Positions 7,778-64,000 of a stretch of DNA of 64,000 nucleotides are shown here, one piece after another (position 1 is the first letter of the stretch; each line of letters opens with the position of its first letter). The notes below the pieces were generated by a model, which was given only the letters and a program-made list of their open reading frames with translations, did no database searches and had not been told where the DNA came from. The DNA is from Desulfomonile tiedjei (lineage in GTDB: Bacteria > Desulfobacterota > Desulfomonilia > Desulfomonilales > Desulfomonilaceae), in contig JACRDG010000112.1 in the NCBI GenBank assembly GCA_016218715.1, positions 124,001 to 188,000 on the forward strand, read 5' to 3'. The translations under genes and the position numbers were made by a program.

Positions 7778-10700
7778 ATGCGGATCGCACCCCCCATGAG
7801 CGAGCACGTTCGAGACAAGAGGCGCTCCTCGGGAGATACGGACTCCAGAATGAAAGCCCTGCGGCAACAGGTAGAATCCCTTCTAGGCCGGATAGAGGAA
7901 CTCCAGTCAGCAAACGTACAGTTGCGGCAAGCAAACCTGGAACTGACGGATTCCAGAGACAAGTACCTCGATCTCTACGACTTTGCCCCCATCGGCTATT
8001 TCCTGCTCGAACCGGACGGGATCATCCTCGACGTGAATCTTGCCGGAACGAACCTTCTCGCCATGCCCAAGTGGTCGTTGATCCGTAAGCCTTTTGCGCT
8101 GTTTGTTCTCGAGGAGGACCGGGAGATTTTTGAGGCCCATTTTCGGCTGGCTTTCGAGACCCTTGCGGTTCAGGAATGCGAAATTCGACTGGTACGTGCA
8201 ATCGCCGGTACGTTTCACGCCCACGTCGAAAGTCGTGCCGTCCAATATGAGAACGGTGCCAAGAAACTCTGCCGCATCGTCGTATCCGATGCCTCCAAAT
8301 TGCAGCGCGCGGCCGAGACCATCGTCGAGAACGAGAAGAGGTTCAGACAGGTCTACGACAACGCACCGGTCATGATGCATTCCATCGATCGACACGGCAT
8401 CCTGCGCAACGTCAACAAGAAATGGCTTACCGAAATGGGGTACGAGCGAAGCGAGGTCATCGGCAAGAGTGTCGAACTCGTCATGACCCCCGATGCGAGG
8501 GTCGCACTGGCCCGGAACCTCTACCAATTCTGGGACAGCGGAAGGATATCGGATCTCGAGTACCAGTACATCAAGAAGGACGGATCGATCATCGACGTCC
8601 TTCTTGACTCGGTAGCGGTGTACGACGCGGTCTGGGGTCAAGTGAGCCTGTCGGTGATGCGCAACGTCACCTACCGGAAACAGGCCGAAGAGTCACTTCG
8701 GCAGAGCGAAGCCCGCTACCGGGCACTGTTCGAGAACATCAGCAACGGCGTCGCCATCTATAGAGCCGTCAATGAGGCGGAAGATTTCGTCCTCCTCGAT
8801 TTCAACCGCGCGGCCGAGAGAATAGACCACATCAGTCGAGAGGATCTCCTGGGGAAGAGTGTCATCAAGGCATTTCCCGGCATCAAGGACTTCGGTCTGT
8901 TCGAGGTGCTCCAGCGCGTGTGGCGCACCGGACAACCGGAACATTTTCCAACTAAACTCTACAAGGAAGGACGCTTGGGCGGCTGGCGCGAGAACTTCGT
9001 ATACAAACTGCCGACCCAGGAGATTGTTACCGTGTACAGTGACGAAACCGACCGCAAACTCGCGGAAGAGGCCTTGCGTCAAAGCGAAGAGCGCTACCGC
9101 AGCATCGGCGAGCTTATCCCGTACGGTGCATGGGTTGCAGGTAGTGACCCCGGTGCCACCTATGTGAGCCAGAGCTTCCTCGATATGGTCGGTCTGACGT
9201 TGGAGGAGTACAAGACCTTTGGCTGGATAGACCGGTTACCGTCCGAAGACGCACACAAGACCATGTCCCTTTGGAAGCATTGTGCCCAAACCGGCGATAT
9301 GTGGGACGTGGAGTACCGCATTCGTGACCGGCACGGCAGGTACCGATGGATCTTGAGCCGTGGCATACCGATTCGTAACGACAGGGGAGACATCGTCTCG
9401 TGGGTCGGGATCAACCTGGACATCAGTGACCGGAAACGATCGGAGCACGAACTGAGGACGAGCGAAGAGCGTTTTCGCGCCATCTTCGAAGGAGCTCGCG
9501 ACTGCATTTATATTCAGGACCGCTCTCTGCGGTACACCCATGTCAATCCCGCCATGGAAAAACTCTTCGGGCTCCCTGCCTCCCAGATCATAGGGCGCAG
9601 CCCGGAAGATCTCTATGGTGAAGAGGCCGGTAGACGTGTCCGTGAAGTGGATCTGCGAGTCCTGGCTGGCGAATCGGTCGAAGAGGAACATACCCGGCCG
9701 ATCAACGGCGTTGAAATCACCTTCCATGACATCAGAGTACCGCTCCGAAACAGCGAAGGGGTGATCATAGGAACATGCGGTTTCGCCCGCAACATCACTG
9801 AACGAAAGAAGGCCGAACCTCACCGGATCGCCTTCCGTGAATGCGCCTCGGAGGCGATGCACGCTACCCTCGCCCAGGCGCGCTATGCCGCGGCCAAGGA
9901 CAGCATCGTCCTCTTACAGGGGGAAAGCGGTAGTGGCAAAGACTATCTCGCTCGGTGGATACACGACCGGTCTAGACGGGCGGACGGTCCTTTCTTTGCG
10001 GTCAATTGTGCCGCAATTCCCCATGACTTGGCCGAGTCCGAGCTGTTCGGTCATGAACGAGGAGCCTTCACCGGAGCGCTCGGGCGAAAGAGAGGCCTTC
10101 TGGAACTTGCCGAAGGCGGAACGCTGCTGCTCAACGAAATCGGCGAACTCTCCCTCGCCCTGCAATCAAAGCTGCTGGCATTCCTCGATACACGGTCGTT
10201 TCTCAGGGTTGGGGGTGAGAAGCAGATTCGAGTGAACGCGCGCCTCATTGCAGCGACCCATAGGGATCTCGAAGGCGAAGTAGGCAAGGGGCGTTTTCTG
10301 GAAGCGCTCTTCTATCGCCTGAACGTCTTTTCCATTTCAGTACCACCCCTGCGCGAACGACGGGAAGACATCCCGCTTCTCGTCGAAGAGATCTTGTCCC
10401 AGCTCTCCTCTGAGATGCAACTCTCCTACATCCCCAAGCCGGACCAAGAATCTTTGGACGCGCTCCTGAGCTACCACTGGCCTGGGAACGTGCGGGAATT
10501 GCGCAACGTCCTCGAGCGATCCCTGATGCTCTCTGGGGGCGGACGCCTGAACGTGGTCCTCCCTCTCGCACCCGGGATCAGGGAAAGCTGGTCGCACAGG
10601 GTGTTGTTTCCAGATGAGCGCAGCCTTCACGACGTAACCGACGAAGTGATTCGGTCGCTTTGTGAAGAGGCGCTGCGCCGGTCAAACGGGGTCCGAAACG

Positions 10701-62065: not shown

Positions 62066-62446
62066 ATGTTGCCGATCATAAAGTTCTTGCCGTGGCAGGT
62101 TGTTTCGGCCGTAGCACTGGGATTGCTGATCGGTTCAATGGCTGGCTGCGCTTACAGAGATGAAGGAGTCGATTTCGACAAAGAGTTGACTATGAAAGAA
62201 GACGGGCTGGTTTATACAATTAGGGAGGACAAACCTTTCACAGGGAAAGCCTACTTAACCGTGTGTGGTCGGGAGTGTATGCCCTTCTTACATTGGGAAG
62301 GTGAATTTAAGGACGGGAAGAAGCACGGTACGTTTGTGTTTCCGGAATCTCGCAAATCCAATGACATCTTTCGTCCCGGTGGCAAGCACGTCGTACGGGT
62401 GAAGTTTAAGGATGGGATTGAAGTAGAACAAGCAAAGGTCCCGTAG
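62066..62446 (+). CDS. Lipoprotein with MORN-like motif
   Basis: A 126-residue lipoprotein: signal peptide with lipobox GSMAGC (Cys near residue 28), then a mature part with FTGKAYLTVCGRECMPFLHW and EGEFKDGKKHGTF, which is the YEGxxxxGKxHG pattern of MORN repeats as in YwqK-like proteins. It probably sits on the inner face of the outer membrane. ATG 62066 has GAGGAAGG at good spacing; ATG 62048 is also in frame and adds two basic residues to the signal. No partner is evident. Confidence 0.7.
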   Translation: MLPIIKFLPWQVVSAVALGLLIGSMAGCAYRDEGVDFDKELTMKEDGLVYTIREDKPFTGKAYLTVCGRECMPFLHWEGEFKDGKKHGTFVFPESRKSNDIFRPGGKHVVRVKFKDGIEVEQAKVP

Positions 62447-62473
62447 GATGCGGTGAGCGAAGCGAACCGCATC
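62447..62473 (+). repeat. Dispersed repeat family B, copy 3
   Basis: GATGCGGT and ACCGCATC form a perfect eight-base stem around GAGCGAAGCGA. It starts at the base after the lipoprotein stop and could also act as a terminator-like hairpin. Related sequence (GATGCGGTTCCCG) follows at about 62495. Confidence 0.7.
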
Positions 62474-62563
62474 TGTCGAGAAAACACCGCGAACGATGCG
62501 GTTCCCGTTTGTCACCGCCTCTTTGCACCTGCTGCATCCGACGGATTTCAGGCAAATACCCCA

Positions 62564-63286
62564 CTAGGCGGAATAGCCACGAGGGCACGGAGGGAGTTCT
62601 TCTGTCAACCGTGTTGCGATTTGAGGCGCATCCGGATACAGCTTCGGTAGCGTGACAAGCCCTTGCACGAAGTCCTGGAAAACACCGGCCTCGGCTTCGG
62701 TCGGTTCGACCTGATCAATGACTTTCTTCACGGCGCTGCAGACCAATGGCGCGCGTCTCATTAACCCGGTTAAGGATTCTTCTCCGATGTAGAAGCAGCG
62801 ATACCATTGGCGCCTCTGTCGTATTACATAATCGTCTGCTCCTAGGCGGAGCTTGTCCACAGTAAATTGAGCGCGCTCCCGATGCGCTTCTGGGATCTGG
62901 TCGGTCATCATGAGCTGCCACGATCCAAGTTGCACTTCGAACCAACCGTTTTGAACCTCAAAAGGATCGAGTATCTTCGCTCCGTGTGCCGCCTTTCTGC
63001 TATTGATCCTGTCTGACGCGTACCGATAGTTGGTCCACTCGTACGCGAACTCTGGGTGATCGGACTTACTGAGGTAGTGTTCCACCGCCCCTTCGAGGCC
63101 GATGTGCATGGCCGAGTAGCCGCACAGAAAGTTGAAAGCCTCTGCCAGCTGGTCTTTGCAGCTTGTCCAGCAGTTCGGAGGCTTTGCCGGTCGAGTGGTT
63201 GGGTCAGCGTCGAGCCACTGGCGGCCCGGGCGCCGCACCTTCTCATCAAAGTCGGTGGGCTCGGGGGAAGGATCAAAGTGAATCAT
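62564..63286 (-). CDS. HNH-like nuclease, PtuB-like (Septu/retron type), zinc ligands altered
   Basis: A 240-residue protein. Residues 55-107 trace the HNH core of PtuB-like enzymes: CGYS (55-58) stands where C-x-x-C is usual, EHYLSKS (E69, H70, K74) holds the general-base His, and EWTNYRYASDRINSRK ends with N95 and K98, with ILDP next. Three of four zinc-type Cys positions are replaced, but His, Asn and Lys of the active site remain. The start overlaps the ATPase stop by 14 bases (translational coupling). PtuB assignment is an inference; the same scaffold occurs in other defence systems. Confidence 0.6.
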   Translation of the reverse strand: MIHFDPSPEPTDFDEKVRRPGRQWLDADPTTRPAKPPNCWTSCKDQLAEAFNFLCGYSAMHIGLEGAVEHYLSKSDHPEFAYEWTNYRYASDRINSRKAAHGAKILDPFEVQNGWFEVQLGSWQLMMTDQIPEAHRERAQFTVDKLRLGADDYVIRQRRQWYRCFYIGEESLTGLMRRAPLVCSAVKKVIDQVEPTEAEAGVFQDFVQGLVTLPKLYPDAPQIATRLTEELPPCPRGYSA

Positions 63287-64000
63287 GAGCCTCTGGCCTT
63301 TGCTTTTCCCGCTTCACAAAGTAATCCCATTCCACAAGGAACGGATCATCTTCGGGCAACAATCGCATCAGGTCCCTCTGGATTTCTTTCTGGACTTCCT
63401 CTCTGTTTTCCCTGCTTGAGAACGCTTTCATGTCGTCATGCCGCATATAAGCATATGCAGCTTCGAGCACGCGGTCAGCCTCCTTGGAAGTGGCTCGGCG
63501 CAGTCCGAAGACCGGCGAGGTCAGCCAGTCGCTGCTGTCGCCGTACTTAGCCCACTGAAAGGGCGAAATGGTTATCTTGCCGTCTTCCTCGTCGAAGACA
63601 ATTACTCGGTCCTTTGCTTCGTCGAATTCCGGTTCAAGAGATGCCAATAGGAGAGGAGAATGGGTCGTGGCGACTATCTGGACGTTCATCTTCTCGCTAA
63701 GTACCTTGGTCACCGAGAGAATGGCCGGGAGGATCGACCGTTGCCACTTCGGATGGAGATGAGCCTCCACTTCGTCTATCAGGATCACTAAGTCATTGGC
63801 CGGTTCTTGCTTGAGGATGCGGCAGGCCTGCTGATGTTCGTACCAGCACCAGACCAGAACGTAAGCCAGACTCAGGATGCGTTTCATTCCAGCAGAGGCG
63901 TAAATGACCGGCACGGGGTAAGCGTAGTAAGGAAGTCTAATAGTGGGCACATCCCTCACGTCGCTAACGGATACCCGAATAGGATGATCAGGCTTAATCG
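63273..64000 (-). CDS. AAA-family ATPase, PtuA-like, 5'-truncated by the window
   Basis: The C-terminal 242 codons of an ATPase; the start lies beyond base 64000. YASAGMKRILSLAYVLVW is the ABC-type signature region, LVILIDEVEAHLHPKWQRSILPAIL the Walker B with catalytic Glu, and VATTHSPLLLASLEP the H-switch. This is the AAA_21/OLD-like style of PtuA, RecF-like and retron ATPases. The Walker A part is not visible. With the overlapping HNH-like gene it forms a probable two-gene anti-phage unit; a third component (reverse transcriptase and ncRNA of an Ec78-type retron) could lie further out. Confidence 0.65.
   Translation of the reverse strand, partial: IKPDHPIRVSVSDVRDVPTIRLPYYAYPVPVIYASAGMKRILSLAYVLVWCWYEHQQACRILKQEPANDLVILIDEVEAHLHPKWQRSILPAILSVTKVLSEKMNVQIVATTHSPLLLASLEPEFDEAKDRVIVFDEEDGKITISPFQWAKYGDSSDWLTSPVFGLRRATSKEADRVLEAAYAYMRHDDMKAFSSRENREEVQKEIQRDLMRLLPEDDPFLVEWDYFVKREKQRPEAHDSL

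Follow-up and report, generated by a model that had tools for sequence, protein, structure and literature searches.

A Septu type I gene pair with a zinc-ligand-poor PtuB in Desulfomonile tiedjei

When the predicted nuclease of a two-gene defence system has parted with nearly all of its zinc-binding cysteines, does it herald a new kind of system or merely an unconventional member of a familiar one? The question is raised by two overlapping genes at the edge of a 64,000-nucleotide stretch of Desulfomonile tiedjei DNA (hereafter the window), in which an initial annotation, made from the letters alone, had recognised a PtuAB-like pair and proposed that its zinc-free HNH protein, possibly with different partner components beyond the window edge, could represent a new subtype. 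The pair is real and intact, and belongs to Septu type I through a zinc-ligand-poor branch of PtuB; it is a member rather than a new kind, because a solved Septu nuclease from E. coli is without the same cysteines.

An intact PtuAB pair at the end of a housekeeping operon

Both genes lie on the minus strand. The window contains the C-terminal 241 residues of the PtuA-like ATPase (63273..64000), with Walker B (ILIDEVEAHLHPKWQ) and the H-loop (THSPLL), and reading on past 64000 completes the protein on the contig at 460 residues (G000:C78; L009:5273-6655, minus strand; window coordinate = L009 coordinate + 58000), 655 nt beyond the window edge and with Walker A (GDNGLGKT, residues 29-36) as intact as the other two motifs. 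Residues 1-451 match the PADLOC PtuA model PDLC00307 (E=2.2e-147), and a Pfam scan returned AAA_21 (E=2e-18) and AAA_15 (E=3e-16), in keeping with the AAA_21/OLD-type C-terminus first described. The 3' end of the ATPase gene shares 14 nt with the start of the small gene (63273..63286, minus strand), suggesting that the two are translationally coupled.

The small gene (62564..63286, minus strand) has an intact reading frame encoding a PtuB-like HNH protein of 240 aa, residues 1-189 of which match the PADLOC PtuB model PDLC00348 (E=8.7e-65), while a C-terminal tail of ~50 aa (190-240; 62564-62720) extends beyond the family model and is without counterpart in most relatives. The first zinc pair of PtuB is reduced to C55-x-x-S58 (C55-G-Y-S58) and the second is gone, as the initial annotation had seen, with S91 and I94 in its place; the annotation's list of core residues, H70, N95 and K98, also stands, except that it omitted the catalytic N86. 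This is the equivalent of the Asn tested in Septu, separated from H70 by the same spacing of 16 as H75 and N91 of EcB88 (PMC13096335), with N95 occupying the third HNH position just ahead of K98. No meaningful Pfam match was obtained for the small protein. Since AlphaFold2 left the HNH core (residues 50-101) mostly below a pLDDT of 50, in two models that were built on shallow, seven-row alignments and reached 65 and 60 overall, the predicted HNH assignment is carried by evidence from sequence profiles; in Foldseek searches of the PDB with these low-confidence-core models PtuB chains filled the top 9 and 12 places, though with no E better than 0.035.

The nearest upstream gene lies 62 nt from the pair, on the same strand, and is the first of a series that we take, from translations without database matches, to comprise a Yip1-like gene, a PP-loop gene, AMMECR1, argC, guaB and sppA. 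The order sppA, guaB, argC, AMMECR1, Yip1 is kept in the five family relatives examined, which are without the pair, and the PP-loop gene in four of them. Because the upstream operon order is thus conserved and the PtuB model is absent from all 17 other genomes of the family, the pair is an accessory element inserted where a housekeeping operon ends; its patchy distribution (0/17 in the family, yet present on plasmids and viral contigs) fits transfer. The ORFs called within 9.5 kb upstream belong to housekeeping genes, with no reverse transcriptase, third gene or other defence gene among them, and the different partners suspected beyond the edge accordingly find no support. The pair lies outside any defence island in this genome. 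An Rfam scan around it returned one sub-threshold microRNA match, which was disregarded. Just past the 3' end of the small gene lies a palindromic repeat of roughly 85-98 bp (window 62435-62533), possibly a REP/MITE-like element, which has more than 20 further genomic copies at 79-93% identity and folds more stably than its shuffles (z -2.7).

With a PtuA-family ATPase carrying Walker A and B, an adjacent PtuB-family HNH protein retaining the catalytic His and Asn, and two genes without a reverse transcriptase, the pair very probably makes up, on its own, a two-gene defence system of Septu type I as PADLOC defines that type (PMC8565338; PADLOC-DB 2.0, whose Septu models date from 2023). The original recognition of a PtuA/PtuB pair is thereby upheld by near-full-length matches of both proteins, which are much stronger than chance would give. 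Among solved structures, sequence searches matched PtuA and PtuB of retrons Ec78 and Ec83 and of the E. coli Septu. A retron type I-A or Septu type II identity was rejected: no reverse transcriptase is among the genes called upstream, and the retron-specific NCBIfam models for PtuA (NF041760) and PtuB (NF041761) score far under their cut-offs. PARIS (AriAB) was rejected likewise, the partner being PtuB-like and not a TOPRIM nuclease, and AriA models reaching 82 bits against 489 for PtuA.

Relatives in BREX operons and a natural chimera

Relatives were gathered from genomes, plasmids and viral contigs and 21 PtuB sequences aligned; all 21 match PDLC00348, and nearly all have an ATPase of the same type directly upstream. 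BREX operons, representing at least two distinct settings, house ten loci of this branch, the usual position being between pglX and pglZ. In eight, all Chromatiaceae copies (L013, L014, L015, L063-L067), the pair adjoins pglX or pglZ or is flanked by both, and brxL comes next where the contig extends far enough; in Aeromonas caviae (L019) a different BREX carries a copy between the same two genes, and a further copy (L068) comes after brxC-pglZ. Elsewhere, a copy (L012) adjoins a type I specificity subunit. HNH/OLD-ABC dyads have been reported in BREX in general (PMC12839542), and PARIS has been located within Salmonella BREX (PMC11341690). Such company lends some weight to the idea that the branch serves, like PARIS, as a backup effector guarding BREX or restriction systems, from which the window copy would have become detached. 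However, BREX or restriction genes adjoin neither the window copy nor about half of the other loci, and we regard this reading as a serious if unlikely contender.

Within the Chromatiaceae, one pair (L063:8826-13425; G876:C153) is chimeric when compared with L014, L064, L066, L067 and L013. Up to position 10009, at about residue 331 of the ATPase and so throughout its core, it is 82-85% identical to the common Chromatiaceae type, and from ~10009 to pglZ it matches L064 at 83%; in the four other copies compared, the match to L063 ends exactly at 10009 and resumes at pglZ (10906). Since the block exchanged comprises the PtuA C-terminus together with the whole of PtuB, this one natural recombinant suggests that the C-terminus is the part of PtuA that pairs with PtuB, and hints at where that part starts. 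By extension, the branch could be a mobile effector module that has specialised in guarding BREX (perhaps also type I restriction): each host system would retain its ATPase core and trade the PtuA C-terminus and zinc-free PtuB as a unit, thereby acquiring other nuclease targets, and the window copy would again be a detached member. We consider this decidedly improbable.

Querying phage records with the small protein gave zero matches and searches of viral contigs with single proteins none, whereas searches with alignments found four contigs. PtuAB of the branch occurs on contigs classed as viral (L030, a 187 kb IMG/VR contig; L031; and L071, a 197 kb contig), the small gene of L071 being shortened by a frame break. 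Two PtuA relatives on viral contigs (L029:2965-4836 and L071:907-2859) are longer, at 623 and 650 aa, with ~200 extra N-terminal residues.

Zinc ligands across the PtuB branch

The missing zinc cysteines are not peculiar to the window, and the initial observation holds for the whole 21-sequence branch. Position 58 is occupied by S, L, M, W or T, neither it nor position 94 is Cys in any sequence, and position 91 is Cys in five; a zinc-ribbon HNH of the CxxC...CxxC type was rejected on positions 58 and 94. Invariant in all 21 are C55, H70, W84, N86, R88, N95, K98, D107 and P108. A profile-profile comparison with eight PtuBs, most of them bearing CxYC and a second Cys pair, matched the branch to these zinc-type proteins (probability 99.6, E=5e-24), with H70 aligned to the HNH His, N86 to the Asn, and N95 falling beside the last zinc Cys.

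That these sequences form one clade (tree support 100/98), have their own PADLOC model and are frequently resident in BREX might be taken to mark a new zinc-free Septu subtype, working differently from known Septu. Yet the branch keeps the catalytic residues and the customary two-gene architecture, and the solved PtuB of E. coli Septu (8ee7/8eea), which falls outside the branch, is without the same three ligands. Its sequence, read from the target line alone (the query having been spliced from parts of its chain and of a relative), runs LCCYSEIR...HIEHVENKSQHPERTFDYQNLAASALDSGENGG: CCYS stands at 54-57 and AASALDSGENGG in place of the second pair, so that the first Cys is retained and the three other zinc positions are lost. 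As a structurally characterised Septu nuclease shares the loss, and PADLOC Septu models already cover the window pair, a new Septu subtype cannot be founded on the lost zinc knuckle, and we give such a subtype little credence. The proposal was plausible, but missing zinc cysteines are no marker of one, and on this point the question is settled.

Because 8ee7 instead groups with retron-type PtuBs (91/99), its ligands and those of the window branch were likely lost separately, a reading of the tree that falls short of proof given the very long branch of 8ee7. The zinc site of PtuB HNH fingers has thus probably been lost more than once, and appears to be dispensable. That three of four structural cysteines are gone from the window PtuB could also betray a degenerate, inactive nuclease with its metal site lost, but this is scarcely credible: the ORF is intact, none of the 21 diverse sequences departs from H70, N86, N95, K98 or C55, and activity has been reported for E. 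coli Septu despite the same loss (PMC11555353, PMC13096335).

Proposed mechanism and comparison with known systems

The locus presents a gene pair of known family, with conserved residues and no third gene; its complex, trigger, nuclease target and role in defence can be sketched from homologues. By analogy with these, PtuA, an ABC-type ATPase of the OLD/AAA_21 kind, most likely keeps PtuB inactive within a complex and detects infection, upon which the triggered PtuB HNH nuclease would cut nucleic acid, whether host tRNA or DNA, and so stop phage growth. In Septu EcB88, Walker and H/N mutants abolish defence and tRNA-Tyr is cleaved (PMC13096335); PtuAB of retron-Eco7 depletes tRNA-Tyr, and the Septu of E. 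coli ATCC 25922 has DNA as its reported target (PMC11555353). The predicted HNH finger of the branch keeps its catalytic residues and not its structural zinc site. Its stabilisation would therefore have to come from PtuA, or from packing about C55, LDPF (106-109) and the Y82-x-W84-x-N86-Y-R motif.

Among known systems, the PADLOC Septu type I defined by PDLC00307 and PDLC00348 is the closest likeness, with near-full-length matches, overlapping genes, the ATPase first and no reverse transcriptase; the window PtuB differs in its ~50 extra C-terminal residues. Septu of E. coli ATCC 25922 (PDB 8ee4, 8ee7, 8eea) is likewise a stand-alone pair with CCYS, no second Cys pair and an H-to-N spacing of 16, but is distant in sequence (phmmer E=0.0025 to PtuB). 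The PtuAB of retron type I-A (Ec78/Eco7) shares the ATPase/HNH pairing and a TIGR02646-like HNH; unlike the window pair, it is accompanied by a reverse transcriptase, and its PtuB retains zinc-type cysteines. Finally, the HNH/OLD-ABC dyads of BREX (PMC12839542) are pairs of the same type, and close relatives of the window pair lie between pglX and pglZ, whereas no BREX genes adjoin the window copy itself.
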